This document shows positions 4,711 through 28,711 of a stretch of 29,251 nt of DNA, piece by piece. A program made the position numbers and the translations under genes. Positions within the stretch are counted from its first letter, which is position 1. Each line of letters opens with the position of its first letter. The notes under the pieces were generated by a model, which saw only the letters and a program-made list of their open reading frames with translations, searched no databases and was not told where the DNA came from. Source of the stretch: a virus; IMG/VR virus record IMGVR_UViG_3300005836_000035, positions 1 to 29,251 of that record. One strand, written 5' to 3'.

Positions 4711-4772
4711 TGCTTCATATCCTTTCAGTTCGGGTAATCCGACTTCTTTAGGTTGAAATTGCCCGGTCAAAG

Positions 4773-7278: not shown

Positions 7279-7290
7279 AAATAGAACTCC

Positions 7291-7317
7291 TTTCATGTTT
7301 GTGAGTCTAGCATGAAA
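7291..7317. promoter_or_regulatory. Inverted repeat between integrase 2 and the divergent gene
   Basis: TTTCATG (7291-7297) and CATGAAA (7311-7317) are perfect inverted arms 13 bases apart, in the 86-base gap between two divergent genes. They could be an operator. No convincing promoter was picked out. Confidence 0.35.
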
Positions 7318-7364
7318 CATTTCACGACAGATAACAGATTGAATTGAGAAACGAGGGTGAAACA

Positions 7365-8571: not shown

Positions 8572-9387
8572 ATGAAGACAATCTTGCTACTGAATGAGAA
8601 AGGCGGCGTGGGCAAAACCACGCTGGCGGTTCACATCGCGGCGGTGCTGGCTGCACGGAAAAGCCAAGCAAATCCAAATCGTGGAAATGAGGTGCTGTTG
8701 ATCGATGGCGATCCGCAAGGGAATGCGACGGTACGGATGGGGTGGAAGAAGTCTCCGGGTTTGTATGATCTGCTGGTGCGGGATGCTAGCTTTGGCACTG
8801 TGACTAAAATTGTCAAACCGGAAAAATTCGGCATTCCCGGCGAGCGTTTACCAAAAGGCAATTTGTATGTGATTCCGTCGAATGTGGAGACGCGGAATAT
8901 CGCCAACAGCATCAGCGATGCCGATACGCTAGCTGTGCGATTGTCGGAATTGGAGGGGCGTATGGACATTGTGATTATTGATACTTCGCCCACACCATCA
9001 CTGCTGCACGGGGCATTTTACACGGCTGCGGATGCGATTATTTACCCTACGAAATTGACCTACACCAGCTTCGATGGGCTGGTCGAGAGCATCTTACGAC
9101 GAGAAAAGGCCGATAAAACGCGGGCTGATCGGTGGGGACTGAAGCCGATAGAAGTCATGGGAATTGTACCAGTGGATTACCGGGGGAACACCATCGAGCA
9201 GCAAGAAAACCTGGCGAAGCTGAAGTCTCAATTTGGAAAGAAGGTTTGGAATCCGATCTCACAACGAACGATCTGGACGGAGAGCGAGGGCGCGGCGCTA
9301 CCTGTTTATGCGCTGGATCCAAAAAGTGAGGCGGTATTGGATTGTTGGGAATTAGCGGATCGTATTGAGGAGGCATTGAATGTCTAA
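8572..9387 (+). CDS. parA: ParA-family partition ATPase
   Basis: A 271-residue ParA/Soj-type ATPase. The deviant Walker A motif NEKGGVGKTT is at residues 8-17, Walker A' LLIDGDPQGN is near 43-52, and Walker B-like IVIIDTSPTPS is near 138-148. An insertion around residues 31-38 (KSQANPNRG) lengthens the usual loop. It lacks the N-terminal DNA-binding extension of P1-type ParA. Such ATPases position plasmids or phage-plasmids on the nucleoid, together with a ParB protein and a centromere. The next gene, which overlaps its end by eight bases, encodes a ParB-like protein, so they form one operon. Confidence 0.92.
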   Translation: MKTILLLNEKGGVGKTTLAVHIAAVLAARKSQANPNRGNEVLLIDGDPQGNATVRMGWKKSPGLYDLLVRDASFGTVTKIVKPEKFGIPGERLPKGNLYVIPSNVETRNIANSISDADTLAVRLSELEGRMDIVIIDTSPTPSLLHGAFYTAADAIIYPTKLTYTSFDGLVESILRREKADKTRADRWGLKPIEVMGIVPVDYRGNTIEQQENLAKLKSQFGKKVWNPISQRTIWTESEGAALPVYALDPKSEAVLDCWELADRIEEALNV

Positions 9388-11629
9388 GCGTGATCGTGAT
9401 CGTTTGGATCCCTTTCAGCGGGGTGATCTGGAAGAGGTCGCCGACGAAATTTATGGAAAGCCTGCGCCGTTTCTGGATGCGGGTCGAATCGTAGCGGTAT
9501 CGACGAATATTGATGCAATCTGGGCGGACGTGAAGCAGCCACGCCGGGCCGTACCTGCGTCGATCCGGCTGCACTGGAATGGCAACCCGGTGGACGTGGC
9601 GGAGATGTTGAATCAATGGCACATCATCGCGGGGAAGACGGCGGTTGTTGACGTATACGCGATTTTGCAGGGGAATGGTGAGGGCTTCGAAGTGGAGAAC
9701 GCGCCGGCCATCTTTACGGGCTATCTGGAACTGCTGAGGTTGGCAGCCAGCATCCGAAAGGAGGGGCTGATAAATCCCATTAGCATCGTTGAATTCAGCG
9801 GGCGCAACGTGATCGAAACGGGGGAACGGCGCTGGCTGGCATACCACATGCTGCGGCAATACATGGGCGACGAATGGGCGAAAATCCCGGCGAGAAAGAG
9901 CGAGGAACGCGATTACGTGTGGCGGCAGGCGGCAGAAAACACGGCGCGGCGCGAACTGAATGCCATCGGGATGGCGCGGCAGTTGGCGCTGCTGATTATG
10001 GAAACGCGGCGCGGAATCGAGGGGCAAAGTTACAACGACTTCGACGAGCTGGTGATCGCCGGGGGCTGTGACCGGAAATTCTATGCGCAGATCGCGAACG
10101 GGAATGTTCACCGCGTACCGCGCGGCATGGGCGAACGCATCCAGGGCGCGATGAATCTGAGCGAAAAACGGCTGGCGGATTATCGAAAACTGCTGAAATT
10201 GACAGAGGACGAAGTGGTCAATGACGCGCTGTGGATTCGCGGCGACGTTGGAGATTGGCCGGAATTCACACTCCGAGAAGTCGTGTCTACCTTACCGGAC
10301 GGTAAGGTTCGCGAGATCGTGACGCGGGAAAATTGGACGCTGGGGGACTTGCGAGAGGCGATGGAAGGGGCGAAAAATCAAGCCCCCTCACCCCCTCTTC
10401 CCACAGGGATTTCCTTTGGGCACCCACAAGGCGAGGGGGGGCAAGATGTCCCGCCGACGCCAAGCACAGAATTTCAGATATTGGACAAGGTGCGGACGCC
10501 AGGGGGCCATATCGGGACGGTGGTGCGAGTCAATGGGCGGTTGCTGGATGTGCAGACGGTGAACGGGCTGAAGGCGTACCTGGCGGAACATCTGACGCTG
10601 GTGAGCCGGGCGCGGGAAGAAGAGCAGGAAACCCCTCCCCAACCCCTCCCCACTTCGCAAGCTCATGGAGAGGGGCAGAGAAACGCGAGAATTCCGGTGC
10701 AGCGGATCAACCTGGATGATTACCCGGATGTGATGGCGCTGGGGGCATGGATAGAGCGGTATAAGGCGCTGAAAAAAGTTCGCGGGGCGGATGAACTCCT
10801 ATTCACGCAGACCGCTTACGGGGCCGTCGCGCTGCGCGAAGATGCAAAAAAGGCATTTGGCATCGGTATGGACATGGCGCACGAATATGAAAACACGGAA
10901 CATGGGATGGCGTTTTTCCTGAAAGACCTCAGCGGATTGGATGAGTTCGCGAAACGTTGTTCTGTCGCGATCTATAAAGACTACGCGAATCAGCCAGCAG
11001 TCAATACGTTCTGGGTGAAGCACGTGATGAATAAGAAGGCCGCGGTGCCGACGGTCAAGATGTCTGAAACAGGCAAAGAGATTCCTGTCCTGGATGGCAT
11101 TCCTGTTGGGAACGCGGTGAGAATTGACCACAACGGGAAGATCGGCCAGCTTCTGGGGGTTTCGTATAAAGATGACGAAGAGCCAGGTTACATGGTGCGG
11201 GTTGATGGCAAAACCGAAGAAACGTGGCGGGAAGCGCTGACCGATTTGGGCATGAGTTATGCGGATTGGGTTAAACCCTCACCCCCAACCATCCCACAGG
11301 GAGGGAATGAAACCGGGACTGATAAGGCGGATTCTTTGATCCTGCCGGACGATCACGACTACGTCATCGGGTACGGCAGCGCGGAGTGGCAATTTTTGAA
11401 CGCGATGCGGGAAGCGGCGCGGCTGCTGGAAGATCACGACACCGAAAAAGCCATGACGGAGCTGATCCAGATGACATCAACGGAAGCGCGGCGATGGGAG
11501 GGAAAAGGCGGCATTCGGATGCTGTTGGACGGGTATTCCGACCATATGCTCCAGGTGTTGGCCGGTTGGCAGGAAGTGCGGCTGCAAAATGTGCTGCACC
11601 AGATCGAAACGGCGGGCCAAGATGCTTGA
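9380..11629 (+). CDS. Large ParB-like protein with repeat-derived insertions
   Basis: A 749-residue protein. Residues ~110-210 match a ParB/Srx N-terminal domain: LLRLAASIRKEGLINPISIV, then VIETGERRWLAYH (the ExGERR motif). A helical region from about 175 (AENTARRELNAIGMARQLALLI) resembles the ParB HTH segment. The C-terminal half, from about residue 450, has no recognised family. Three linkers encode copies of the C-rich palindromic repeat: APSPPLPTG to QGEGG (near 335), TPPQPLPTSQAHGEGQ (near 418) and PSPPTIPQGG (near 633). They separate the domains. The start at 9380 overlaps parA. I infer the partition partner of ParA, but typical ParB proteins are 250-350 residues, so extra functions are likely. 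Confidence 0.8.
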   Translation: MSKRDRDRLDPFQRGDLEEVADEIYGKPAPFLDAGRIVAVSTNIDAIWADVKQPRRAVPASIRLHWNGNPVDVAEMLNQWHIIAGKTAVVDVYAILQGNGEGFEVENAPAIFTGYLELLRLAASIRKEGLINPISIVEFSGRNVIETGERRWLAYHMLRQYMGDEWAKIPARKSEERDYVWRQAAENTARRELNAIGMARQLALLIMETRRGIEGQSYNDFDELVIAGGCDRKFYAQIANGNVHRVPRGMGERIQGAMNLSEKRLADYRKLLKLTEDEVVNDALWIRGDVGDWPEFTLREVVSTLPDGKVREIVTRENWTLGDLREAMEGAKNQAPSPPLPTGISFGHPQGEGGQDVPPTPSTEFQILDKVRTPGGHIGTVVRVNGRLLDVQTVNGLKAYLAEHLTLVSRAREEEQETPPQPLPTSQAHGEGQRNARIPVQRINLDDYPDVMALGAWIERYKALKKVRGADELLFTQTAYGAVALREDAKKAFGIGMDMAHEYENTEHGMAFFLKDLSGLDEFAKRCSVAIYKDYANQPAVNTFWVKHVMNKKAAVPTVKMSETGKEIPVLDGIPVGNAVRIDHNGKIGQLLGVSYKDDEEPGYMVRVDGKTEETWREALTDLGMSYADWVKPSPPTIPQGGNETGTDKADSLILPDDHDYVIGYGSAEWQFLNAMREAARLLEDHDTEKAMTELIQMTSTEARRWEGKGGIRMLLDGYSDHMLQVLAGWQEVRLQNVLHQIETAGQDA
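10289..10308. promoter_or_regulatory. Perfect palindrome inside the parB-like gene (parS candidate)
   Basis: ACCTTACC (10289-10296), GGAC, GGTAAGGT (10301-10308). The eight-base arms match exactly. It lies within the coding sequence, and only one copy is seen. It could be a centromere-like site or a coding coincidence. Confidence 0.3.
10383..10441 (+). repeat. C-rich palindromic repeat, copy 3 (in parB-like gene)
   Basis: CCCCCTCACCCCCTCTTCCC, a longer centre containing ACAGGGATTTCCTTTGGG, then GGCGAGGGGGG. In frame, encoding PSPPLPTG to QGEGG. Confidence 0.75.
10631..10676 (+). repeat. C-rich palindromic repeat, copy 4 (in parB-like gene)
   Basis: ACCCCTCCCCAACCCCTCCC, a centre with a CTTCGCAAGCTCAT stretch, then GGAGAGGGGCA. 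In frame, encoding TPPQPLPTSQAHGEGQ. Confidence 0.75.
11275..11306 (+). repeat. C-rich palindromic repeat, copy 5 (degenerate, in parB-like gene)
   Basis: ACCCTCACCCCCAACCATCC, then CACAGGGAGGGA. It encodes PSPPTIPQGG. It is the shortest and most degraded of the copies in this gene. Confidence 0.55.
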
Positions 11630-16775: not shown

Positions 16776-17387
16776 ATGAAGAAGCAACAAAAGTTTGACA
16801 TTACGGATTTTCGGCGGGCGATTGACGACGTGGGGGCAGAGCCGACGAAAATTGCCGCGCGAATCGGATGCAGCCGGGGGACGGTCTACACGTATTTGCG
16901 GAAGTATCCTGAGCTGAAGACGGCGTTTGAGGCGCGAAAAGGCGGGAGTGTGCAAGAGCAAGTTTTATTTCCCAAAGAGCGATTTGAAACCGCGATTGTC
17001 GGCAGCATGGGAATCAAAACAGGGATTGCGCAGCGCGTGGGATGCACCAGGCAGACGGTTGAAAACGCGCTGGAGCGATGGCCGGATTTAAAACTGATGA
17101 TTGACGATGAACGATCCAGCATTATTGACCTGGCTGAAACGAAACTGATGCAGCAAGTCACCGGCGGGGAACTGCGGGCGATTCTGTTTACGCTGGAAAC
17201 GTTGGGGAAAGATCGCGGCTGGACAAAACGCACGGAAGTGACCGGGGCAGATGGTGAACGGCTGCTCGACCTCTCGCCGGACGTGGTGAGGCTGGTGGAA
17301 ACGATGGGCCTAGATATGAGCGAAGTCGTGCGGCAATTTGAAACGATGGTGAAGGCGGCTGCCATACAGAAGGGCATTTCTCGGTAA
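16776..17387 (+). CDS. terS: Terminase small subunit
   Basis: A 203-residue protein. Two HTH segments are visible: AEPTKIAARIGCSRGTVYTYL at ~21-41 (KIAARIGCSRGTVYTYL its core) and KTGIAQRVGCTRQTVENAL at ~81-99. The middle (AETKLMQQVTGGELRAILFT, then LETLGKDRGW) matches the oligomerisation part of small terminases. TerS binds phage DNA at pac or cos and recruits the large subunit. The large subunit gene follows after one intervening gene, which supports the call. Its stop overlaps the next start by one base. Confidence 0.85.
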   Translation: MKKQQKFDITDFRRAIDDVGAEPTKIAARIGCSRGTVYTYLRKYPELKTAFEARKGGSVQEQVLFPKERFETAIVGSMGIKTGIAQRVGCTRQTVENALERWPDLKLMIDDERSSIIDLAETKLMQQVTGGELRAILFTLETLGKDRGWTKRTEVTGADGERLLDLSPDVVRLVETMGLDMSEVVRQFETMVKAAAIQKGISR

Positions 17388-18241
17388 TGGATATTCGAGA
17401 TCGCATCATCGAATTTCGGCGGGTGAGTGCTGATGAGCTTGTGCCGAACCCCAAAAACTGGCGGGGACATTCGGATTTGCAGCGAAAGGCGCTGAAGGAT
17501 TTGGTTGCCCAGATCGGTTTTGTTGGAGCGGAACTGGCGCGGCTGCTGCCGGATGGACGGTTGATGCTGATCGATGGGCATTTGCGAAAAGAGACGTTTG
17601 CCGGGGCAGTGCTGCCCGTGCTGGTGACGGATTTAAACGAAGCTGAAGCGGACGCGGTGCTGGCGGCGGCGTCGAATAAATATCCGGCGTGGTGGCTGAA
17701 GGTGTTTCAGGACACGGGAAGCGCGGGCGTTACGGAGTTTGACGCGGCGGCGTTGATTGAAATGGGTATGGCGCGGCCAGTGAGGGAGTTTAAGCCCTCA
17801 CCTGGTTCAACTTCGCTCACCACTTCCGTTGGTCGCCCAGCCCCTCCGCATTCGCGTCAGGGCGAGGGGAGTGAATATGCTCCGGCTGTAGGTGGTTATG
17901 TCCCCCATACTGGAAACGCACATTTGGACGATGGCTCATCCAGGCCGGAGATCGCGCGGCAGCTTACAGAGTTGGTTGAAAAGCCGATGGTGACGGCGGA
18001 GCAGATCAAGAGGCTTAAAGCGCTGGGGTATTGGGTTGAGGATTTGAATGTTAATCCGCATGTACCGAAGGGCGGGGGGCCAAATGTCAAAATCACGCAA
18101 CGCATTACTGCGGGTGAAAGTGCAGATCCAGTTACTAATACTATCGGCTTTGCGTGGATTGTTGTTGATGGTTGGGTTGAAGCACTCGCCCATGCACTCG
18201 ATCACGGGTTGATTACGGATAACAAGGCTTCTGAGGGGTGA
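17387..18241 (+). CDS. ParB-like-domain protein between the terminase genes
   Basis: A 284-residue protein. Residues ~10-90 fit a ParB-like N-terminal domain: ELVPNPKNWRGHSDLQRKAL, then LPDGRLMLIDGHLRKETF (the IDGHLR motif). A disordered segment at ~137-162 is encoded by an extended C-rich repeat (KPSPGSTSLTTSVGRPAPPH). A C-terminal part (~195-284) includes VTAEQIKRLKALGYWVEDLN. Such domains occur beside terminase genes in phages, sometimes as nucleases or DNA-modification specificity modules. No catalytic activity is shown. The stop overlaps the terL start (GTGA). Confidence 0.7.
   Translation: MDIRDRIIEFRRVSADELVPNPKNWRGHSDLQRKALKDLVAQIGFVGAELARLLPDGRLMLIDGHLRKETFAGAVLPVLVTDLNEAEADAVLAAASNKYPAWWLKVFQDTGSAGVTEFDAAALIEMGMARPVREFKPSPGSTSLTTSVGRPAPPHSRQGEGSEYAPAVGGYVPHTGNAHLDDGSSRPEIARQLTELVEKPMVTAEQIKRLKALGYWVEDLNVNPHVPKGGGPNVKITQRITAGESADPVTNTIGFAWIVVDGWVEALAHALDHGLITDNKASEG
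17795..17870 (+). repeat. C-rich palindromic repeat, copy 9 (extended)
   Basis: CCCTCACCTGGTTCAACTTC begins the element, with a longer centre containing CCCCTCCGCATTCGCGTCA, and it ends GGGCGAGGGGA. In frame in the ParB-like gene, encoding PSPGSTSL to SRQGEG. Confidence 0.7.
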
Positions 18242-19683
18242 TCGCAGAACGGGAATTCGCGGCGGGGTTATTTCGCGGGGTGTTTGGGGAAGAGCCGCCG
18301 CAAGTTGTGCCCTGGAATGAATGGGCGATTGAGGTTCACTCGAACGATGGGACGCTGCCGCTGTACGAAATGAACCATGCTGCCGGGGTGCTGCACCTCT
18401 ATTTGCACAAAGGTCAAATACCCGCCTGGGAGAGTCTCAGGCGGTTTGTGTTTATGATCGCCGGGAAGCAGGGCGGAAAAACGATCTTCGGCCCGCCGAA
18501 ACTGTTCCAAAAAATTCAACAGCTTGGGCGCGGGGATTACCTGGCGGTGAGCGCGACGTATGATTTATTCAAGCTGAAGATGCTGCCGACGCTAAAACAA
18601 TTTTTTGTCGAGGATTTGGGGATTGGGCGGTATTGGGCGGGCGACCAGATCATCGAACTGAAAGACCCGGCGACGGGGGCATTTGGGGCGACGTATTCGC
18701 ACGAACACGAAAAAATGTACGTGCGGATTATCCTGCGCAGCGCGGACTCGGAGAAGGGCTTGCAGAGCGCGACGGCGTTATGGGCGTGGTGCGACGAGCC
18801 GGGGTTGTATGAAATGGACGTGTGGAAAGATATTCGCGGGCGGTTGAGCCTGACGGCGGGCGGGGCGCTGGGGACGACAACGCCGTATGACCTGGGCTGG
18901 CTGAAACAACAGATTTACGATGCGTGGGTGCGGGGTGATCCTGAGATTGACGTGATTCAATTCTCATCGAGCGTGTCGCCATTTTTTAGCCAGGCGGAAT
19001 ATAGCAGCCTGCAAAGATCGATGCAGACCTACCAATTCAAGATGGATTATGACGCGGAATTTGGACGGCCTCCAGCGGCGATCTACGAGGATTTTGTCGA
19101 TAAGCTAAAAGACGCCGGCGGGCATAAGGTGAAGCGATTCATTATCCCGACAGAGTGGCCGCGCGTGGCAAGCATCGATCCAGGGGTTGTCAATCCGGGC
19201 AAGATTTTCGCGGCGCACGATCCAAAAGAGGATGTTTATTACATCTATCGGGCGGAAAAGGGCGGCGTGCGGAGGACGAGCAAAGAGCATGGGCGCGACG
19301 ATGTGGCGCTGGCGCGGGCGGGCGGGGAGCGCGTTATCTGGTGGGCCGTTGGCGCAAAATCGGAAAAATACTGGCGCGAAGATTACAAGGCTGCCGGAGC
19401 CGAGGGCGTGAAAGAGCCGGACGTGACCGACGTGGAAGAGGGCATAGACCGGGGGACGCAGCTCATCAAACAGCACCGCATGTTTATTTTTGATGACCTG
19501 GTGGCGTTTGTCGATGAGATGATGCGCTACAGCCGGGTCATTAAAGACGGCGAAGTGACGAAGGATATTAAAGACAAAAGCACCTATCACCTGATGGATG
19601 CCTATCGTTATTTCGCGGTGCAGGTGGTGAAGCCGAGATCGACGGCGAAAAGCAGCACAGGAGCGAGAAGTTATGTTGGCTGA
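18238..19683 (+). CDS. terL: Terminase large subunit
   Basis: A 481-residue protein started by GTG, overlapping the previous stop. It is the packaging ATPase-nuclease. The Walker A motif AGKQGGKT is at residues ~75-82 and Walker B-like ALWAWCDEPG near ~180-189. The RNase-H-type nuclease domain starts near ~308 with RVASIDPGV, and the C-terminal YHLMDAYRYF near ~450-458 supplies the terminal acidic residue. It cuts concatemeric DNA and pumps it into the procapsid through the portal encoded next. The length is normal for the family. Confidence 0.95.
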   Translation: MIAEREFAAGLFRGVFGEEPPQVVPWNEWAIEVHSNDGTLPLYEMNHAAGVLHLYLHKGQIPAWESLRRFVFMIAGKQGGKTIFGPPKLFQKIQQLGRGDYLAVSATYDLFKLKMLPTLKQFFVEDLGIGRYWAGDQIIELKDPATGAFGATYSHEHEKMYVRIILRSADSEKGLQSATALWAWCDEPGLYEMDVWKDIRGRLSLTAGGALGTTTPYDLGWLKQQIYDAWVRGDPEIDVIQFSSSVSPFFSQAEYSSLQRSMQTYQFKMDYDAEFGRPPAAIYEDFVDKLKDAGGHKVKRFIIPTEWPRVASIDPGVVNPGKIFAAHDPKEDVYYIYRAEKGGVRRTSKEHGRDDVALARAGGERVIWWAVGAKSEKYWREDYKAAGAEGVKEPDVTDVEEGIDRGTQLIKQHRMFIFDDLVAFVDEMMRYSRVIKDGEVTKDIKDKSTYHLMDAYRYFAVQVVKPRSTAKSSTGARSYVG

Positions 19684-21169
19684 AATTGCGGCGATTCTGA
19701 TGGACAAAGGACTGATTGCCAGCACGTGGCTGGGCGAGATGAGTCTGAAGGGCAATCTCGTGAAGCTGTACCGCGAATATTACGATGGACAGCACCGGAT
19801 GCGGCTGACGAGCGAAATGCGCAAGATGATGTCGATCACTGACGAGCGGATTGACCGCTACAACGCCAACTACTGCGAGATGGTCGTCTTGGCTATGGCT
19901 GACCGGCTGACGGTGGATACGATTGAGGCGGATATGCCCTCACCCCAGGGCGAGGGGAATAATACAGGGCAGGAAAACCCGGCGCAGGATTGGGTGAATA
20001 AGGTGCTGGATGATAACCGCATTGATGGGCTGCAAATCGACGTGCGGGAGGCGACGCTGCGAGATGGTCTGACGTTCATCATATCGCAATATGACAGCGC
20101 TAATCAGCGCACGATTCTGGCGCATGAACTGGCGTGGGATGGCGATTGCGGATCGATGGTAATTTATAGCCGGCAGGGCAGGGAGATCGTGGCCGGAGTC
20201 AAGGTGTGGTACGAGGGCGAAACGAGGCGCGCGAATATCTATTATCCGAACTCAGTGGCACGCTACAGCTATGAAAAAGTGACCATTCAAGAGGATGGTC
20301 AAACGGTTGAGAAATATCAACTAAACCTGATGGATGCGCCGGAGGACACGACGCGGGATGGGCTGTCTCCCGGTGTGCCGCTGGTGCCTTTTTATAACAA
20401 GAATCGGAAGGGCGCAAGCGAGCTGGTGAACGTGATTCCGCTGCAAGATTCGCTGAACTCGACACTCATCAGTGCGGTGATGAATGCGCTGTTGACGGCG
20501 TTCGCGGTGCTGTTTGCGAAAGGGTGGCAGCCGCCATCGGGCATCACGCCAGGGATGATTTTTAACGCGGCGATTTTGAATCAAGATGGCAGTCCGTTCT
20601 GGGCTGAGTCAAAGGACATTGCGGAAGCGGCGGCGGCGCTGAACGGCTCCTATGATCTGATTCGTATCCAGCCGGGCGAAGTCGAGCCGTTGATTAAGCA
20701 ATGCGATTTCATCATCAGCCAGATCAGCGGAATCAGCAATACGCCGCTGCCGACGATGATGGGGACTGACCCAAGTGGCGAGGCGCTGAAGCAATACGAC
20801 ATCCGGCTGCTGGGGAAGATCAACCGGGCGATGGTGCAGATGGGCAATTCGTGGGAAAACGTGGTTGCGCTGGTGCATATGCAGCAGACGGTTTTCGGCA
20901 CGGAGCGACCACCCGATTCGGCGGGTTGGAACTGCCGCTGGAAAAATGCCGAAATGCGCAATGACGCGAACATTCTGAAGGCGGCGGAACTGCTGCAAAA
21001 ATGGGGGTTTGTGCGAGAGGCGCTGCGCATCTTTAGCCAACTGCCGGGACTCAGCTACAGCGAGGATGATATTAACCGTCTAATGGATGAACAGGCGCAG
21101 GACGCGGGCCGGGCGCTGGGGAATGCGGTTGGAAGCGTGCCGAATTTTGGCGGGTTTAATTTTAATTGA
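19673..21169 (+). CDS. Portal protein
   Basis: A 498-residue portal protein of the Gp6/SPP1-like type. It starts 11 bases before the terL stop. Typical features: an N-terminal helical segment with LVKLYREYYDG, a wing region (LAHELAWDGDCGSMVIYSRQ), a central crown-stem part with LQDSLNSTLISAVMNALLTA, and SQISGISNTPLPTMMGTDPS near 345-365. A short repeat copy encodes MPSPQGEGN at ~87-95, in a loop before NPAQDWVNKVL. It forms the DNA-entry dodecamer at the capsid vertex. Its stop is immediately followed by repeat copy 11. Confidence 0.92.
   Translation: MLAEIAAILMDKGLIASTWLGEMSLKGNLVKLYREYYDGQHRMRLTSEMRKMMSITDERIDRYNANYCEMVVLAMADRLTVDTIEADMPSPQGEGNNTGQENPAQDWVNKVLDDNRIDGLQIDVREATLRDGLTFIISQYDSANQRTILAHELAWDGDCGSMVIYSRQGREIVAGVKVWYEGETRRANIYYPNSVARYSYEKVTIQEDGQTVEKYQLNLMDAPEDTTRDGLSPGVPLVPFYNKNRKGASELVNVIPLQDSLNSTLISAVMNALLTAFAVLFAKGWQPPSGITPGMIFNAAILNQDGSPFWAESKDIAEAAAALNGSYDLIRIQPGEVEPLIKQCDFIISQISGISNTPLPTMMGTDPSGEALKQYDIRLLGKINRAMVQMGNSWENVVALVHMQQTVFGTERPPDSAGWNCRWKNAEMRNDANILKAAELLQKWGFVREALRIFSQLPGLSYSEDDINRLMDEQAQDAGRALGNAVGSVPNFGGFNFN
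19937..19958 (+). repeat. C-rich palindromic repeat, copy 10 (short, in portal gene)
   Basis: CCCTCACCCCAGGGCGAGGG plus GA: a minimal copy with the middle lost. In frame, encoding PSPQGEG. Confidence 0.65.
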
Positions 21170-21207
21170 CCCTCACCCCTAGCCCCTCTCCCTCAGGGCG
21201 AGGGGAA
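21170..21207 (+). repeat. C-rich palindromic repeat, copy 11
   Basis: CCCTCACCCCTAGCCCCTCT, centre CCCTCA, then GGGCGAGGGGA. It starts at the base after the portal stop codon and marks the left edge of the accessory region. Confidence 0.85.
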
Positions 21208-21246
21208 CGAAGACCGATAAAGAAGATTATCAACTTCGAAGCCGAA

Positions 21247-21335: not shown

Positions 21336-22118
21336 ATGAACATCAACGAAATTAAGTCCAAAATCCAGGCAGAAGTTAACAAAATCTGCGAAGCCAACCG
21401 TAATAAATATCGCCGCCAGTACCCCGTTTCAAAATGGGCACAGGACGAGATCAAGGCATTAGGACTACAGGAATACATTGATGCCTACCCCCGTGCTATC
21501 GGCATGAATGATGCGCAGGATATTATCAACTCTACGCGCACAACCGTCGACGCAAGCGGTAACGATGATGCCTGGAGCTATATTGGCACAATCGGCAGTC
21601 TGCTGAAACAACTGGCAGCGGCGATTGGGGCAGACGACGAATCCGACACGACCTTCGAGTTTTCGCTCAAGGATATGAGCAGCAAGCCCTTCGCCTGGAT
21701 GCTGGAAGGTGTCGAAATCAGCGAAATTGGAAATATTGAAACCTTCGTTGAACAGGCGGCCAGGATGTATATCAATGCGACCAACTATTCAGGTCAGACA
21801 GACGCTCAGGTTTACCAGACCTGGCTCGATGAAACTTACGAGTTTGAGCAGGCAGTTCGTTACATTCGTGAGCAGACCGTTGGCGCGCAGGTCAAAGTAA
21901 CAATGGACTGCGCCTTTGAACTCGATGGCGTCAAGTTTCGTGTCTACCGCAACATTCTGTGGAGCGATGGTGGTGAGTTTGACGATCTGGTCATTCGCGA
22001 ACTCCCAGAAGTGGCCGAATTCACGAATCGCGATCAGACAGTTCAAATTACCATTACCGCCTCAGACATGCGCGAGGCGCGTGAACATCAGGAATATCTG
22101 GCTGAAGAAATTGAATAA
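21336..22118 (+). CDS. Hypothetical acidic protein, first gene of the cassette
   Basis: A 260-residue protein following the near-consensus promoter. The N-terminal ~60 residues are helical and charged (IKSKIQAEVNKICEANRNKY). The middle holds FEFSLKDMSSKPFAWMLEGV and ETFVEQAARMYINATNYSGQ. The C-terminal ~70 residues look like a beta-strand-rich domain (VKVTMDCAFELDGVKFRVYR) with an acidic helix at the end. No family is recognised. Base usage is more A/T-rich than in the neighbouring terminase and portal genes. Its last base overlaps the next start. It could be the effector of a regulated module. Confidence 0.65.
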   Translation: MNINEIKSKIQAEVNKICEANRNKYRRQYPVSKWAQDEIKALGLQEYIDAYPRAIGMNDAQDIINSTRTTVDASGNDDAWSYIGTIGSLLKQLAAAIGADDESDTTFEFSLKDMSSKPFAWMLEGVEISEIGNIETFVEQAARMYINATNYSGQTDAQVYQTWLDETYEFEQAVRYIREQTVGAQVKVTMDCAFELDGVKFRVYRNILWSDGGEFDDLVIRELPEVAEFTNRDQTVQITITASDMREAREHQEYLAEEIE

Positions 22119-22504
22119 TGCCCACCATCACGCTGAACCTCTCAGACAAAACCTACGCCCGCCTCACTGAGTATGCCCGAAACGAGGCGGGCACATTACT
22201 CGAACGTGCCGCCCGCGAAATCCTGGATCAATTTTTTGCTGAGGATTATGAGGTTGTCCAGGAGACAGGCGAACTCCTGGACGACGGCGACAGTGGCTAC
22301 AACACGATGCTCAATCCTGAATATGCCAACCAGACCCTCACCGCCCGCCAGGTCGAGCGGGAATATGGTCTGAAGGCGGGGACAGTTCGTAGCTACATTC
22401 GCTATCACCCTGAAATGGTGGAATCGGGTGAATTTCGCAAGGCTGATGAGCGCACCTGGACGATATTGCGCCTGGTTGCGTATCAGATTTGGGGCGACAA
22501 ATGA
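22118..22504 (+). CDS. RHH-like N-terminus plus HTH, cassette regulator candidate
   Basis: A 128-residue protein. Residues 1-42 resemble a ribbon-helix-helix: strand PTITLNLSDK, helix TYARLTEYARN, helix AREILDQFFA. Residues ~70-115 form a separate HTH of the excisionase/MerR-like kind (LTARQVEREYGLKAGTVRSY, then IRYHP). Between them is an acidic spacer (ETGELLDDGDSGYN). RHH proteins commonly autoregulate and act as antitoxins. The palindrome in the promoter at 21274 is a plausible target. Overlaps link it to both neighbours. Confidence 0.6.
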   Translation: MPTITLNLSDKTYARLTEYARNEAGTLLERAAREILDQFFAEDYEVVQETGELLDDGDSGYNTMLNPEYANQTLTARQVEREYGLKAGTVRSYIRYHPEMVESGEFRKADERTWTILRLVAYQIWGDK

Positions 22505-23052
22505 GAACCAAAGGGCAAAGAAATTTGAGTCAGTCTGAAATAGAGCGCGTCATCGAACTATACGACCAGGGAAATAGCCGCCTTCAAATTCAGATAGAAA
22601 CAAAGCTCACCCAACCCACGGTACGAAAAATCCTAAAAGAAGCGGGGTATTCCTCCATGAATATGACCACCAATTCCATTAGTGACGAACAGCGAGATGA
22701 GGTTGTTCGGTTATCCAATATGGGATTCGCCAGTCGTGAAATTGCAAGACGCCTAAATATCAGCAAAAAATCTGTCCTGAATATTATTCGTGAGCGAGTA
22801 AAGGGTATTAAACCTGTAAATCGCTCAGAGATTAATGTTTTTGAATTCATTCAGATATGGCAAGAGAATGATTCGTGCGAGGATGTTGCGCGAATACTTG
22901 GGTTGACCATGCAAGAGGTCTATAGCAGAGCATATAACTATCGCGCGAAAGGCGTACCTTTAAAAAAATATCCCACCAGGAGAGGGTATAACTGGGACGA
23001 CCTCAAGGAGTTCGCTGAACTTTTTGAGGATGGCACAGAAGATCAGGATTGA
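22501..23052 (+). CDS. Triple-HTH hypothetical protein
   Basis: A 183-residue protein from the ATG at 22501 (ATGA overlap). Three successive HTH-like units are visible: LSQSEIERVIELYDQGNSRL with TQPTVRKILKEAGY (~8-50), DEQRDEVVRLSNMGFASREI with NISKKSVLNIIRERVKG (~62-102), and FIQIWQENDSCEDVARILGL with TMQEVYSRAYNYRAKG (~112-155). The spacing resembles resolvase/Hin-type HTH units. No catalytic domain is seen. Probably DNA-binding; it could be an accessory regulator or a DNA-organising protein. Function unknown. Confidence 0.6.
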   Translation: MRTKGQRNLSQSEIERVIELYDQGNSRLQIQIETKLTQPTVRKILKEAGYSSMNMTTNSISDEQRDEVVRLSNMGFASREIARRLNISKKSVLNIIRERVKGIKPVNRSEINVFEFIQIWQENDSCEDVARILGLTMQEVYSRAYNYRAKGVPLKKYPTRRGYNWDDLKEFAELFEDGTEDQD

Positions 23053-23076
23053 GAATAGCAGTTATCGGTAATTAAG
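23053..23076 (+). repeat. Intergenic repeat B copy
   Basis: GAATAGCAGTTATCGGTAAT follows the cassette stop. With the related copy at 24983 it flanks the minus-strand island containing the MuF gene, as direct repeats. Confidence 0.45.
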
Positions 23077-23108
23077 TTTTTGGGTGCAAAATATGTCGAA
23101 AAATATGT

Positions 23109-23135
23109 AGCCGGGGAGACTCGGCTGTTTTTATT
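23109..23135 (+). terminator. Terminator of the cassette
   Basis: AGCCG and CGGCT form a 5-bp stem around GGGAGACT, followed by GTTTTTATTT. It lies between the plus-strand cassette and the convergent minus-strand MuF gene. Confidence 0.6.
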
Positions 23136-24189
23136 TGGGCTTGAGGGCATCGGTGAGGGAGGCTTCGCGGATCATCTCGTTGAAGACTGGATCGTTGTAG
23201 GGGTGGACGAAATCGCGGAGGGTGACTTTGCCGGCGTTGTAGGCGGCGAATTTGCCGGGGGAATCAACGAAGCTGCGCTGCTGGGCTTGTCGATCAGGAG
23301 GGAGGGATTGAAACCAGTCTTCACCGGGGACGATAGGTAGGGGCGGGCGGCCTTTGACGCGAACCACGCTGGTGCAGCGGCCACTATGGTGATCGTCCAC
23401 GCGGGGAATGGGTGTTCCGGCGTCGGTTGCGGAGTCCCAGATCACATCGCCGTGCTGGGCCACGCAGGAAAGGCAAGTGCGCTCGTCGCGGGTGGCGATG
23501 CGAATGACCTGTTCACAAATGTCCACATTGGCGTTTTGATGAACGGCCGTGCCGTCGCGGTAGCTGGTTAGCTGGAGCGTTCGCATTTGATTGTTGGCGA
23601 CGTGGGCGGGAAGCCCTTCGGTAATCCGGCGAATCTCGCGGGCGGTACGCAGCGGTGAAAAACCGAGGGCTATTCCACGAATGGCCTGATTATTGACGAC
23701 GGCCAGCACATCAGGGCCATAGGCATTCATGAGCGCGGCCCAATCGGAGGACTGCGAATACCCGACGAGGCGGTTGACGGCCTCTGGATCGGGGACGTTC
23801 CAACGAACACCGATGGCGCGAAGCTGTTGATTGGTTATGCCGGGGAGGGCAAGCTGACGCTGGATACTGCCGGCTGCATCGACGCCGGACATCTGTACAG
23901 GTTCGGCTGCACCGTCGATCAGGCGCGAGTCGGTGTTGAGCGTGGTATCAAGATCGGCCAATAATGCGCGAAGGATGGGATTATCCGGCATGAGGCGTTC
24001 GCCAGCATCGGCGAGGCGCTGCGCTTCGGCATCGAGTTCGGTGAGGCGCTGCTGGATGAGGCCGGCATTGGTCGAGCGGGCGACGGCGTTGAGGGTGGGA
24101 CGGGCCGCCTGTTCATAGCCGCGATCCAGCAGCTTGGTGATGAGTTCCGAAACTGTGCCGCGCCGGGGCGGAGTTTGATTGGTTGCCAT
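23131..24189 (-). CDS. MuF-type minor head protein, on the minus strand
   Basis: A 352-residue protein from the ATG at 24189. The C-terminal part carries the Mu gpF-like head morphogenesis domain: YRDGTAVHQNANVDICEQVI, then TRDERTCLSCVAQHGDVI and HHSGRCTSVV, with the CxxC and the later Cys as in that family. The N-terminal ~150 residues are helical. In most phages this gene directly follows the portal on the same strand. Here it lies ~2 kb beyond the portal and is transcribed opposite to all other head genes. No ribosome site is clear. It looks intact, so it is likely functional but from a different promoter. Confidence 0.82.
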   Translation of the reverse strand: MATNQTPPRRGTVSELITKLLDRGYEQAARPTLNAVARSTNAGLIQQRLTELDAEAQRLADAGERLMPDNPILRALLADLDTTLNTDSRLIDGAAEPVQMSGVDAAGSIQRQLALPGITNQQLRAIGVRWNVPDPEAVNRLVGYSQSSDWAALMNAYGPDVLAVVNNQAIRGIALGFSPLRTAREIRRITEGLPAHVANNQMRTLQLTSYRDGTAVHQNANVDICEQVIRIATRDERTCLSCVAQHGDVIWDSATDAGTPIPRVDDHHSGRCTSVVRVKGRPPLPIVPGEDWFQSLPPDRQAQQRSFVDSPGKFAAYNAGKVTLRDFVHPYNDPVFNEMIREASLTDALKPK

Positions 24190-24231
24190 ACGGGGATGGT
24201 AGCGCGGGGGGGATGATTCAACGCGCAAAGA

Positions 24232-24244
24232 GAATTGTCAATTC
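24232..24244. terminator. Palindrome at the end of the minus-strand gene
   Basis: GAATTG T CAATTC is a 6+6 palindrome at the stop of the gene at 24244-24549. The loop is too short for a typical terminator. A weak regulatory or hairpin role only. Confidence 0.25.
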
Positions 24245-24549
24245 TAGTTTCTGCGCTTGATATATTCAATCACTTTCTCATGATTAACTCGATATTTCAA
24301 ACCACCCATTCTTCGTATAAGCCTCATCCGTTCAAGAGTATCAGCGTTTTCTTTGCATGGTGGTGGTAAGCCATCAACGTGTTGATTTCCTATCAGCGTG
24401 TCAAACCCTATCACATCATAGATTGGCTGCTTACCTTCCCCCACGTCATGCCTTATAAGATGAAATTCCATTGGAAGGTGGACATTTCCTGATTGTGCTG
24501 CGATCACTACGGATTCCAACCATCTCTGAAGTTCTGCGTCTAGTGACAT
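24244..24549 (-). CDS. Hypothetical protein, minus-strand island
   Basis: A 101-residue protein with AGAGG before the ATG. The N-terminal region is LDAELQRWLESVVIAAQSGN. The C-terminal ~30 residues (RMRLIRRMGGLKYRVNHEKV, then IEYIKRRN) look helical and basic, like a small HTH or nucleic-acid contact. It has its own promoter (24578-24606) nearly identical to that of the next gene. No family is recognised. It is the middle gene of the minus-strand island. Confidence 0.55.
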   Translation of the reverse strand: MSLDAELQRWLESVVIAAQSGNVHLPMEFHLIRHDVGEGKQPIYDVIGFDTLIGNQHVDGLPPPCKENADTLERMRLIRRMGGLKYRVNHEKVIEYIKRRN

Positions 24550-24577
24550 TTAAACCTCTTAATGTTTTCCCTTTCTC

Positions 24578-24606
24578 ATTTAAGCACGAATCGAAAAAGT
24601 GATCAA
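24578..24606 (-). promoter_or_regulatory. Leftward promoter, copy 1 of a duplicated sequence
   Basis: On the minus strand, TTGATC (24606-24601), a 17-base spacer, then TTAAAT (24583-24578). The spacer ACTTTTTCGATTCGTGC is nearly the same as the spacer of the promoter at 24948-24976. Confidence 0.6.
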
Positions 24607-24608
24607 CT

Positions 24609-24923
24609 CTACTCTCGATAGCTGTCGTAAATCTCGATTGTTTCGTCGTTGAAAATAATGCCTTCCTGGTTGACCTCTTTTGCAAAGGTAATCAACTCTT
24701 CCAGCGAATTAATCTCAATAAACCAGCGTTCAACTTCTAAATCTCGCACAAGGAAATCACCCTCGGTTCTGTGGTTAAATCCATTTTCGCGCCATTCTTC
24801 CCTAGTCCCGCCATCCCAATCTTTACGAACCTCATCTCTAACGATGGTTTTTGCCCGAAACGCTTTTTGATGCGGTTGAGCTTCAAGATCGTGAATTGAT
24901 GTCCTGTAAATTTTAAATCTCAT
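24609..24923 (-). CDS. Hypothetical protein, minus-strand island
   Basis: A 104-residue protein with AAAGGA before the ATG and a promoter at 24948-24976. Charged mixed alpha/beta protein: MRFKIYRTSIHDL at the start, then WDGGTREEWRENGFNHR, then VERWFIEINSLEELITFAKE, and an acidic tail (NDETIEIYDSYRE). The middle-to-C-terminal strand/helix pattern is like small immunity-type proteins, but no family is recognised. First gene of the minus-strand island. Confidence 0.55.
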   Translation of the reverse strand: MRFKIYRTSIHDLEAQPHQKAFRAKTIVRDEVRKDWDGGTREEWRENGFNHRTEGDFLVRDLEVERWFIEINSLEELITFAKEVNQEGIIFNDETIEIYDSYRE

Positions 24924-24947
24924 TTTTTATCCTTTCTGTTTGAGATT

Positions 24948-24976
24948 ATTAAAACACAAATCAAAAAAGCGATCAA
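24948..24976 (-). promoter_or_regulatory. Leftward promoter, copy 2 of a duplicated sequence
   Basis: On the minus strand, TTGATC (24976-24971), a 17-base spacer, then TTTAAT (24953-24948). Spacer and flanks match the promoter at 24578-24606. Confidence 0.65.
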
Positions 24977-24982
24977 CGCGGA

Positions 24983-25005
24983 GAATAGCGATTATCAGAA
25001 GTAAA
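24983..25005 (+). repeat. Intergenic repeat B copy
   Basis: GAATAGCGATTATCAGAAGT, immediately followed by C-rich palindromic repeat copy 12. The same two-part order appears truncated at 2041-2078. Confidence 0.45.
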
Positions 25006-25043
25006 CCCTCACCCCCAACCCCTCTCCCTCATGGCGAGGGGAG
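25006..25043 (+). repeat. C-rich palindromic repeat, copy 12
   Basis: CCCTCACCCCCAACCCCTCT, centre CCCTCAT, then GGCGAGGGGAG. It is nearly identical to copy 6 and forms the right edge of the accessory region that starts at copy 11. Confidence 0.85.
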
Positions 25044-25104: not shown

Positions 25105-26013
25105 ATGCCTTACGAAGTACGAGATCGGCGGCGGCGGGGGATTGAAATAATTAAATCTCATCTTCGCGTCACTCATTTTTCCCAGTCGCTTGGGGCGGAA
25201 TTGTTCACCAACGGTAATTTTGCATCTGGCACGACGGGCTGGACATTATCTGGAACATCCCCGCCCGACCCGGAAATTACCGTCGTTGCCCCCACTAACC
25301 TGCATGGCGGCGGCGGCACGGGCGCTGTTAATCTGTTTAATTTAACAGGTGGGGCAAGTGTCCCGCGCATGTTTCAATCGGTTGGCGCAGCGAGTTCATG
25401 GTACCAGTTCTCGGCTGATATAACAGCTCGCGCCAGCGGGATTATGCGGCTCACGGACGGGTTTTTGATAAGCCCCAGTTACTCCGCTGTGGGAACCTAT
25501 AAGCGCTTATTGCTGGCGCGCAATGGCGACATGCACATTTATGCGCAGGGGGCTGCACCGCACAACTTCACCGTCGATAATGCTTCGCTGGGCCTGATTA
25601 CCCAAAACGCAACGTCTATCTTTCTGCCCTACGGGACATTTGATTTCCAGTTTGCGCCCGGCACAACCTATGCGGGTCAGCTTATTGGCTTCCGCTACCG
25701 CATTTTATCCGACAGCGATTTTCTCCTGGCGTCCTACCAGCGGAACGTGACGAACAGTGCGTGGGATATTTTCCTGGAAAGTTATGCCAGTAATGTCCCG
25801 ACTACGCTGCGCACGGTCACAGGCGTCGGCACACCGGACACTGTTCGCGTAGTGGTTGACGTGAGTGAGAACCACCAGCTTTATTCGGGCGTGGCAGGCG
25901 TCTATACGCCGCGCGGCGCAGTGGTGAACAGTTCGCTTTACAACACCTCGAAGGGCATCAGCGCGATCTACAGCCCCGGTACCACCCCGAATGAACTGCG
26001 AGCGGTGGTGTAA
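25105..26013 (+). CDS. Beta-rich structural or carbohydrate-binding-like protein
   Basis: A 302-residue protein with AAGGA before the ATG. After a basic N-terminus (MPYEVRDRRRRGIEIIK), residues ~30-130 read like a carbohydrate-binding or jelly-roll module (ELFTNGNFASGTTGWTLSGT, then SSWYQFSADITARASGIMRL). Residues ~145-300 form a second beta-rich region (FDFQFAPGTTYAGQLIGFRY and AWDIFLESYASNVPTTLRTV). The opening pattern, FTNGNFASGTTGWT, is common in exported or virion surface proteins. It lies between MuF and scaffold, so it could decorate the head or be a displaced fibre gene. The next gene starts two bases after its stop. Confidence 0.65.
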   Translation: MPYEVRDRRRRGIEIIKSHLRVTHFSQSLGAELFTNGNFASGTTGWTLSGTSPPDPEITVVAPTNLHGGGGTGAVNLFNLTGGASVPRMFQSVGAASSWYQFSADITARASGIMRLTDGFLISPSYSAVGTYKRLLLARNGDMHIYAQGAAPHNFTVDNASLGLITQNATSIFLPYGTFDFQFAPGTTYAGQLIGFRYRILSDSDFLLASYQRNVTNSAWDIFLESYASNVPTTLRTVTGVGTPDTVRVVVDVSENHQLYSGVAGVYTPRGAVVNSSLYNTSKGISAIYSPGTTPNELRAVV

Positions 26014-26014
26014 T

Positions 26015-26344
26015 ATGCTTCCGATGTGGCTTCTAATTGTTGCGGCACTGCTGTTTGCCCCACCGATGGCGGAGACGCCGGAATGTGAGGCGATTCACGC
26101 ATTGGTGGGCGGTGAGTTGGTCGAATGGCAGGGGTATCCGCAGGGGTGGAATTTACCAACGGATATTGATCGTGTCGCGCATATCGAATTTGCCATCGGC
26201 GGTTTGTGGGAATATCGCGCCCAAAGCCAACGTGGGACGCGCTGGCTTTTTTGGTGGTTGAATTATGACGCGAGCACGGATTCCAATGGCGATCATTACG
26301 GCAATCACAACTTCTGCGGGCCGTACCGGATCACCGATGATTGA
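26015..26344 (+). CDS. Small exported protein
   Basis: A 109-residue protein from the ATG at 26015, just after the previous stop. The N-terminus MLPMWLLIVAALLFAPPMAE is a good signal peptide ending near an Ala-type cleavage site. The mature part is Trp-rich (LFWWLNYDASTDSNGDHYGN) with a DxNGD-like loop and two cysteines. No family is recognised. The pairing of a beta-rich protein with a small exported protein repeats the arrangement at the left end of the window. Confidence 0.65.
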   Translation: MLPMWLLIVAALLFAPPMAETPECEAIHALVGGELVEWQGYPQGWNLPTDIDRVAHIEFAIGGLWEYRAQSQRGTRWLFWWLNYDASTDSNGDHYGNHNFCGPYRITDD

Positions 26345-26580: not shown

Positions 26581-27306
26581 ATGCCGAACAAATCAGAGCA
26601 GAGAATTGCACTTATCCGACCTCACCCCCAGCCCCTCTCCGCAAGCAGAGAGGGGAGTAAGACAGGGATGAGCCTGACGAGATGGCGGGCGTGGTATGCG
26701 GAGGGTGACACCGGAAAAACACCCGGTGCAGGCGATGGGCAGGGCGATGGAAAAGGCGAGGAAGGCTATAACCCGGCCAGCCTCGACGATGCCAAAAAGA
26801 TTATCGCGGCGCTGGAGAAGCGAGTCGGTGAGCGGGATGCTCAAATCGGAACGCTGCGACAGAGCAACAACGGCCTGGACGAGCGGCTAAAAGCGATTGA
26901 GGACGCTCAAAAACAGCGCTTAGAAAAACAGGGCGATTTTGAAGAATTGGCGCGGCAGCGGGCAGCGGAAATCGAATCGTTGAAACCGACTGCGGAACGG
27001 GCAAAGGCTCTGGAACAAGTTATCCGCGAGAGCAATGAAGCGCGGGTGAAACGTGTGCCGGAGGCGATGCGCTCGGTTGTGCCGGCGGATTACCCCCCTG
27101 AAAAGCTGCAAGCCTGGCTGAACGCGAATGAAGCCCTGCTGACCAAAGCCCCGGCACCAAATTTCGACGGTGGGGCGGGGAATGGCGGAAGCGGCGGCAG
27201 CAGCCGCGAGCCTGAATTGACTGCGGAGGAAAAGGCGATGACCTCACTGATGGGGCTGACGCCGGAGCAGTACGCAGCGGCGAAAAAGACTTTGGGACTG
27301 AAATAA
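26581..27306 (+). CDS. Capsid scaffolding protein
   Basis: 241 residues if started at the ATG at 26581 (AAAGGCGTG upstream), or 212 from the ATG at 26668. The two are separated by repeat copy 13, which would encode RPHPQPLSASREGSK. Which start is used cannot be decided here. The body is typical of scaffolds: an acidic/Gly linker (GKTPGAGDGQGDGKGEEGYN), a long charged coiled coil (KIIAALEKRVGERDAQIGTL and EELARQRAAEIESLKPTAER), a Gly-rich spacer, and a short C-terminal helix (LTPEQYAAAKKTLGLK) for capsid contact. Position before the decoration and capsid genes supports it. Confidence 0.82.
   Translation: MPNKSEQRIALIRPHPQPLSASREGSKTGMSLTRWRAWYAEGDTGKTPGAGDGQGDGKGEEGYNPASLDDAKKIIAALEKRVGERDAQIGTLRQSNNGLDERLKAIEDAQKQRLEKQGDFEELARQRAAEIESLKPTAERAKALEQVIRESNEARVKRVPEAMRSVVPADYPPEKLQAWLNANEALLTKAPAPNFDGGAGNGGSGGSSREPELTAEEKAMTSLMGLTPEQYAAAKKTLGLK
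26620..26657 (+). repeat. C-rich palindromic repeat, copy 13 (at the scaffold start)
   Basis: CCTCACCCCCAGCCCCTCTC, centre CGCAAGCA, then GAGAGGGGAG. It lies between the two candidate start codons of the scaffold gene. Its GGGGAG is ten to eleven bases before the second start and could serve as its ribosome site. Confidence 0.75.
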
Positions 27307-27330: not shown

Positions 27331-27346
27331 GTTGGGAGCAAAGAAC

Positions 27347-27772
27347 ATGGCAGTAACCGATACGAGCGCGGGTTTCAAGTATGAGGGGCGTCTGGGCGGC
27401 GGCCCGGACTTGATCCGCAATTTCACGTTTAAGGACACCGAAACGCTGACGAAGGGTGATCTTGTGAACCTGGAGTCGGGCGAGGTCGATCTGGGCGCGA
27501 CGAATGACGCGGGATTTGTGGGGGCAGCGCGGGAAACCAAAGCGGGCACCGACAGCACCACCGAGATCGAATGTTATTGGGCACCGGATGCGATCTATTC
27601 GGTGTATGACGCCAATGCACGCGCGATGGGCGCGACGTTGGATATTGCCGGGACGACGGGCGCAATGACCATCGCCTCATCCAGCAGTGTGGATTTAATC
27701 GTCGTGGGCGGGTTGGGCGCTGATGAGCGGACACTTGTGATGTTCGCACCTGGCGAACACTTCCTGGTCTAG
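27347..27772 (+). CDS. Decoration / capsid-cement-like protein
   Basis: A 141-residue protein from the ATG at 27347 (GGGAG upstream). A beta-rich protein with NFTFKDTETLTKGDLVNLES, then DAGFVGAARETKAGTDSTTE, and LDIAGTTGAMTIASSSSVDL. The pattern 'treated as a parameter value; GDLVxLxxGxV ... FVGxA' is that of capsid-cement proteins that sit between scaffold and capsid genes. It should stabilise the head shell from outside. It lies 24 bases before the major capsid gene. Confidence 0.75.
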   Translation: MAVTDTSAGFKYEGRLGGGPDLIRNFTFKDTETLTKGDLVNLESGEVDLGATNDAGFVGAARETKAGTDSTTEIECYWAPDAIYSVYDANARAMGATLDIAGTTGAMTIASSSSVDLIVVGGLGADERTLVMFAPGEHFLV

Positions 27773-27796: not shown

Positions 27797-28711
27797 ATGT
27801 TAACAAAAGCTCAATTTGACACCCTGCTCATTCCGATCATCTACCATCATTTTAATGTGGGGATGAACCGCGTGCCGAGTATGCGCAGCCGGCTTTTTAA
27901 CGTCCAGACGAGCAGCCTGGCAGCGGAACTCGGTACGGGTATGGGCGGCATTTCGGTAGACACGTGGGATGTCTACAAAAACAGCGGCGAGGCCGGAGTG
28001 AAGGGGCGGGTTGATTTCGATCAACTGTACACACAGACCTACACGCACACGGAATATCCGGTGCAGCTGGTCATTAAAAAGAACCTGCTGATGAATGACC
28101 AGTACGGTCAGATTCAGAAGGTGATCCAGCGTGTGGGCATTTCTGCCGAACAGAAGATGGAACTCGACTCGGCCAGCCTGCTTAACCTGGCATTCGACAG
28201 CGGGACGACATGGAGCGACGGCAAGCCGCTCTGCTCCGCGACTCACCCGGTGGGGCCGGGCGCAGGGGCAGCGGTGTTCAGCAACCGGGCAACGACTGCA
28301 CTTTCGGCGAAAGCGCTGAAAGATGCGCGCGTGGCGATGATGCGCTTCAAGGACAACAAAAACAACGAAATCGGCGTGATGCCGAATGAGTTGTGGGTGC
28401 CGCCGGAGCTGGAAGAAACCGCGCAGGCGCTGGTCAAGTCGATTGGCGACCCGGAAACGGGCAACCAGGGCGTTAACCCGAAAGCGGCGCAAAACTGGAT
28501 GGTGATCCCCTGGCTGCGTCTGAGCGACACGAAGAACTGGTTTATCAGCGACTCGATGTGGCGGGCTGAAGTGGTCAACTGGTACGTGCGCGAAATCACC
28601 TTGCCAATGCTGGTGGAAGAAAACACGACGGAAGTGGTCTACGAATTCAAGCTGCATTACAGCTTCGGCTGCGATGACTGGCGCTGGATTTACGGCAGCG
28701 AAGTGGCGTAA
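27797..28711 (+). CDS. Major capsid protein (Mu gpT-like, HK97 fold)
   Basis: A 304-residue protein with AAGGAG before the ATG. N-terminal FDTLLIPIIYHHFNVGMNRV, then FDQLYTQTYTHTEYPVQLVI, a central SGTTWSDGKPLCSATHPVGP, and C-terminal TKNWFISDSMWRAEVVNWYV. These match the Mu gpT-like major head subunit. There is no N-terminal delta-domain, which agrees with a separate scaffold gene upstream. It forms the icosahedral shell. A hairpin follows its stop after 23 bases. Confidence 0.9.
   Translation: MLTKAQFDTLLIPIIYHHFNVGMNRVPSMRSRLFNVQTSSLAAELGTGMGGISVDTWDVYKNSGEAGVKGRVDFDQLYTQTYTHTEYPVQLVIKKNLLMNDQYGQIQKVIQRVGISAEQKMELDSASLLNLAFDSGTTWSDGKPLCSATHPVGPGAGAAVFSNRATTALSAKALKDARVAMMRFKDNKNNEIGVMPNELWVPPELEETAQALVKSIGDPETGNQGVNPKAAQNWMVIPWLRLSDTKNWFISDSMWRAEVVNWYVREITLPMLVEENTTEVVYEFKLHYSFGCDDWRWIYGSEVA

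Follow-up and report, generated by a model that had tools for sequence, protein, structure and literature searches.

An inverted MuF minor head gene, probably fixed since the ancestor of one phage clade

We analyzed a linear virus record of 29,251 bp (hereafter, the window), in which the gene for a MuF-domain minor head protein lies between the portal and scaffold genes on the strand opposite to the head module. The most probable reading (about 0.8) is that a native head-gene unit was turned once in the ancestor of one clade and has been fixed in that orientation since. The orientation is common to ten non-redundant records and traces to two origins in the phylogeny. The inverted genes are enriched for terminator-like hairpins at their 3' ends. 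Head genes of tailed phages keep their order and direction very consistently.

In the scenario that we propose, the unit between portal and scaffold, consisting of a small gene (preMuF) followed by MuF, would have flipped in the clade ancestor and been kept since. Inverted MuF would be transcribed alone from the scaffold side, divergently from scaffold–capsid and convergently with terminase–portal, and terminator-like hairpins mark the end that faces portal. Three predicted transcription units would replace one, namely, terminase–portal, MuF (with preMuF in the relatives) and scaffold–capsid. In the lineage of the window, where preMuF was not detectable, small low-GC genes (s101, s104, a helix-turn-helix (HTH) gene and others) would have been inserted around MuF.

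The MuF gene and its surroundings

The earlier note on this DNA placed MuF and two small genes on the minus strand, with terminase, portal, scaffold and capsid on the plus strand; these assignments were confirmed, and the decoration gene is also on the plus strand (Table 1). The longest MuF ORF opens at TTG 24228, and the start adopted here agrees with the relatives in the alignment. The scaffold ORF is likewise open from an upstream TTG (26512), ATG 26668 being the likelier start.

Table 1. Features of the head module and adjacent sites and repeats in the window
Feature	Position	Strand	Remark
Terminase large subunit	18238..19683	+	
Portal protein, SPP1 gp6-like	19673..21169	+	
REP-like repeat CCCTCACCCC.A.CCCCTCTCCC	21170..21206	+	second copy 25006-25042
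38-nt site	21205..21242		just after portal
p260, p128, multi-HTH protein	21336..23052	+	variable genes inserted between portal and MuF
38-nt site	23040..23077		left "direct repeat"
Terminator-like hairpin with T run	23107..23135	+	would halt plus-strand transcription before antisense entry into MuF
MuF-domain minor head protein	23131..24189	-	352 aa from ATG 24189; inverted relative to head module
s101	24244..24549	-	101 aa; function unassigned; GC3 0.38; same direction as MuF
s104	24609..24923	-	104 aa; weak match to phrog_11889 (phage families of unassigned function); GC3 0.43
38-nt site	24970..25007		right "direct repeat", between divergent s104 and p302
p302, p117	25105..26344	+	variable genes between minus-strand unit and scaffold
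38-nt site	26590..26627		upstream of likely scaffold start
Scaffold	26668..27306	+	
Head decoration protein	27332..27772	+	
Major capsid protein	27797..28711	+	
38-nt sites, start positions	809, 2024, 4722, 6168, 7709, 8519, 11310, 13480, 15684, 18207, 20220, 21205, 23040, 24970, 26590, 28709		

The window MuF matched PF04233 with an E-value of 7e-4, which is below the gathering score (the MuF proteins of relatives reached 1.8e-6), and a PHROG head family with an E-value of 1e-5; in a tblastn comparison with annotated head morphogenesis and minor head proteins, the best E-value was 5e-12. The Cys/His motif C..C...DHH.GRC is unbroken in the window and retained across the relatives, among which MuF conservation is 48–72%. 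Judging from these comparisons, the gene is genuine and is predicted to code for an intact, SPP1 gp7-like minor head protein. An AlphaFold model built from seven sequences was poor (pLDDT 47.9) and was left unused. In four relatives, MuF carries a C-terminal extension of about 170–200 residues (L008, 9404-11050; L014, 10016-11686; L032, 695-2278; L037, 1942-3552), in which a Pfam scan found no significant match; these proteins are candidates for the extended class of MuF proteins (PMC5576092).

The third-position GC content (GC3) of MuF, 0.69, falls within the range of the head genes (0.64–0.74), and we thus consider MuF native, in agreement with the trees described below. In contrast, GC3 of s101, s104 and the adjoining HTH gene is only 0.38–0.44, so that the island is not one unit but comprises native MuF and later additions. 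Neither s101 nor s104 was found in the relatives, and from their composition both look like later acquisitions. The closest relative, L010, carries other small genes in place of p260, p128 and the multi-HTH protein.

Several other features of the window were recorded. The low-GC3 multi-HTH protein (22489-23052, 187 aa) has repeated HTH domains and weakly resembles the CRISPR repeat-binding protein Cbp1 (NCBIfam E-value 1.4e-10, below the cut-off). Similar stretches upstream of s101 and s104 (24577-24610 and 24950-24980; GTTGATCrCTTTTTyGATTyGTGyTTwAA on the minus strand) are perhaps a duplicated promoter. A ParA-like ATPase precedes a 749-aa protein that has a ParB-like domain (8572-11629), and a second ParB-like protein adjoins terminase (17387-18241), making plasmid-prophage partition possible. 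Searches for RNA families and tRNAs found none.

Orientation of MuF among relatives

Relatives were collected by searches with the MuF protein and a MuF alignment, which recovered viral contigs and one contig of an Anaerolineae MAG (L008), and their gene order was mapped with profiles. The common order is small terminase–terminase–portal–preMuF–MuF–scaffold–decoration–capsid. MuF adjoins portal within the head module but on the opposite strand, outside the usual same-strand context, in ten non-redundant records: the window, L002, L004, L005, L008, L010, L014, L015, L016 and L018. Orientation was judged against whichever head-gene neighbors each record contains, the contigs of L010, L015, L016 and L018 being cut such that the head module is visible on one side of MuF only; L007, which overlaps L005 and comes from the same sample, was not counted separately. 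In about 59 other records, some of them near-duplicates (L003, L006, L017, L019-L048 and 25 further loci), MuF is co-oriented with the head module, and in the annotated phages LuckyBarnes, MinS1 and Mae-JY09 it follows portal in the same orientation. Thus, the comparison of gene order proposed in the earlier note bears out an inversion of the window MuF against the ancestral layout of the head module. The alternative raised there, the same inverted order in all relatives, was borne out by half: one clade is inverted, and its outgroups are co-oriented.

In all six inverted records where both genes are visible (L002, L004, L005, L008, L014 and L015), preMuF is inverted along with MuF. The structural model of preMuF (about 135 aa; pLDDT 83.6) matches capsid decoration proteins, and preMuF is accordingly modeled as a decoration-type gene. 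The co-oriented sister phages L003, L017, L006 and L038 share the common order given above from terminase to capsid and have MuF proteins about 47–60% identical to that of the window, but, unlike in the window clade, their preMuF–MuF pair runs with the head module.

The earlier note left room for mixed orientation or a chimeric join at the island borders. Assembly error is extremely improbable: whereas the REP-like and other short repeats near both borders could in principle mislead an assembler, the same inversion recurs in records of separate metagenomes whose flanking genes differ, and the ten non-redundant records that share it come from different assemblies.

History of the inversion

We built trees for MuF, for portal and for concatenated terminase, portal, MuF and scaffold, merging L012 and L017 in the latter as one phage on positional grounds, because the two come from the same metagenome and both break in the portal gene. 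The concatenated tree places nine inverted records, all but L005, in one clade with moderate support (84/56), and the nearest outgroups are the co-oriented L003 and L017. The portal tree alone also unites the inverted records other than L005, and the MuF tree alone leaves the branching order within this group open. L005 is placed apart, and a single group of all ten inverted records was rejected (AU test, p = 1.5e-6); therefore, at least two inversions occurred, or one with later reversals. The tree is best read as one inversion that was then fixed in the nine-record clade and probably an independent inversion in L005. In the larger clade, the inversion has outlasted a divergence of MuF to about 60% identity. 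The capsid of L002 may have a different history. The L002 capsid protein (gene at 956-1837) is 34% identical to that of the window, compared with 52% for portal and 62% for MuF, and the capsid of the co-oriented L003 is 60% identical; being more divergent than portal and MuF predict, the L002 capsid suggests exchange of this gene within the clade.

These results also bear on the suggestion that MuF was replaced by a foreign gene (moron) that entered the module already inverted. Morons often lie opposite to their neighbors and have their own promoter and terminator, and s101, s104 and the HTH gene beside MuF look moron-like. MuF itself, in contrast, has the composition of the head genes; for the clade, the MuF tree is congruent with the portal/scaffold trees; the nearest MuF relatives occupy the corresponding locus of co-oriented sister phages; and preMuF moves with MuF. 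Replacement is thus very improbable, MuF being a vertically inherited and compositionally native gene.

Convergent gene ends and transcription

Turned round relative to its neighbors, MuF would have to be expressed apart from the other head genes. The expectation of separate expression voiced in the earlier note is supported, and the separate unit would have its own promoters and timing, with MuF presumably incorporated into virions. A folding-based scan, adopted because a strict perfect-stem scan (2/9 inverted versus 3/41 co-oriented records) overlooked hairpins with longer loops, detected a hairpin with a T run no more than 330 nt past MuF in six of the nine inverted records compared with eight of 41 co-oriented ones (about 14% in shuffled sequences; Fisher p = 0.009, with a cut-off picked once some sequences had been seen). 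All six hairpins in inverted records are oriented to stop transcription arriving from portal; that of the window occupies 23107-23128. The inverted L008, L015 and L018 have no strong hairpin, and in L018, the 3' ends of MuF and portal overlap by 83 nt. The enrichment fits a separate transcription unit that would meet portal transcription head-on. Promoter prediction yielded nine promoter-like matches compared with 5.3 ± 2.5, which is not clearly above chance.

Dispersed 38-nt sites and REP-like repeats

The direct repeats that the earlier note took to flank the island are real, 16 nt long, with GAGAATAGCAGTTATC at 23051 and GAGAATAGCGATTATC at 24981, but they do not define its borders, because both belong to one larger site that is dispersed across the genome, with at least 15 copies in the window. 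This site is 38 nt long and pseudo-palindromic, with the approximate consensus AATCA.TTCCGATAA-N6-TTATCGGAA.TGATT, a conserved ATAA-N6-TTAT core with a 6-nt spacer, and conserved arms that reach past 11 bp. A position weight matrix (PWM) trained on five relatives, with the window held out, identified 15 sites in the window compared with 0.2 expected and none in the reversed sequence; the counts in other records were six versus zero in L010, eight versus 0.25 in L012 plus L017, and six in L038. No 38-nt sites were found in the L020, L021, L022 and L029 group or in the inverted L005. Most of the sites lie at gene junctions, such as directly ahead of terminase (several phages), following portal, or in the preMuF–scaffold interval; some are intragenic, such as one in portal. 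Site variants are phage-specific, as in L017 (GCCCAATAA...TTATTGGGCGTGA).

One arm is usually stronger than the other, and the two halves do not covary (505 complementary cells compared with 580 expected under independence); thus, we consider the motif a DNA site and reject an RNA hairpin. Among the strongly asymmetric sites in L002, L004, L015 and L018, 16 of 17 are oriented with head transcription; orientation is mixed in the window and L014. As a first guess, the 38-nt site is probably an operator, and a recombinase site is less likely.

Two further readings were considered and rejected. The host chromosome is not an evident source of the motif: the core matches the Anaerolineae MAG G001 exactly at three places, including one in the phage contig; genome G271 gave ten core matches, most of which fall in coding sequence and lack the outer symmetry, and an exact dif-like pattern was absent from the three genomes searched. 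An integron attC reading of the preMuF–scaffold spacer, prompted by TAACGCRCA...TGYGCGTTA, was inconsistent across records. REP-like repeats, of which none would be expected by chance, number five in the window (12589, 16395, 21170, 25006 and 26619) and none in the other loci. Two of the five flank the 3.8-kb interval from portal to p302.

The MuF unit is flanked by 38-nt sites in the inverted window, L004, L008 and L014 as well as in the co-oriented L017 and L038. The two flanking sites are inversely oriented in L014 and L008, and the portal-side site is absent from L002 and L018. Furthermore, one region of the window carries genes for two tyrosine recombinases (3490-4770 and 6373-7365 (-)), both Xer-like but scoring far below the XerC/XerD equivalog cut-offs. 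In principle, a site-specific recombinase acting on inverted end sites could switch MuF on and off as a phase-variable segment, for which the paired pseudo-palindromic sites with 6-nt spacers, their inverse orientation in L014 and L008, and the two recombinases would be suitable components. However, the spacers of the flanking sites differ from each other and the sites are spread over the whole genome; the borders have no long inverted repeats; L005 is inverted without such sites; and among the loci compared, no near-identical contig pair had opposite orientations, orientation instead tracking the tree. Phase variation is therefore highly improbable.

Recombination between two dispersed sites, by homology or by an Xer-like recombinase, could also have been the molecular cause of the fixed ancestral inversion rather than a competitor to it, with the two origins corresponding to two events. 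Inverted as well as co-oriented phages have sites on either side of the MuF unit, which would supply substrates for inversion, variable genes lie between sites in the window and L010, and the arms with a 6-nt spacer resemble the geometry of the dif sites used by Xer recombinases. Nevertheless, L005 has no sites, L002 and L018 lack the one on the portal side, and the orientation of the asymmetric sites with transcription better suits a regulatory role, rendering this cause rather doubtful. Broader still, the 38-nt sites might be Xer-like recombination sites, served by a phage- or host-encoded enzyme, that create shuffled invertible modules, with inverted MuF as a fixed product. We regard this as distinctly unlikely and retain a dif-module reading at low probability because the 6-nt spacer between ATAA and TTAT fits an Xer-type site and two tyrosine recombinases are present; if correct, the site system would be a phage version of plasmid dif modules.

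Comparison with known systems

The 38-nt sites resemble the stoperators of cluster A mycobacteriophages in being dispersed, short and phage-specific in their variants and in following transcription, but a stoperator is asymmetric, 13 bp long and served by a known repressor (PMC6550527), whereas the sites in the window clade span about 38 nt, are pseudo-palindromic and have a putative binder. They also resemble the pdif/dif modules of Acinetobacter plasmids (PMC6449649, PMC13141974), with dispersed two-arm sites, a 6-nt spacer and variable genes in between; in contrast to pdif, they occur in phages, follow transcription in several of them, and have only a putative role in recombination.

The fixed, clade-wide inversion together with a second, independent one implies that the poorly understood minor head protein MuF need not be co-transcribed with portal and scaffold. 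Natural pairs, such as L017/L003 versus the window/L014, could be used to probe whether MuF dose and timing matter, and caution is due in pipelines that detect MuF by its same-strand neighborhood. The clade is known from fragments. In literature searches of partial coverage, a MuF unit inverted throughout a clade did not come up, a weak indication that the arrangement is new.

The muf genes have been described immediately downstream of portal genes, and this neighborhood was used to define MuF families (PMC5576092). As in the MuF/SPP1 gp7 module (Jamet et al. 2017, PMC5576092), the window has a single-copy MuF-domain protein in a head module with portal, terminase, scaffold and capsid; unlike in that arrangement, a whole clade carries MuF on the opposite strand, convergent with portal. 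The inversion is real and evolutionarily fixed, and is a new version of the known MuF arrangement.
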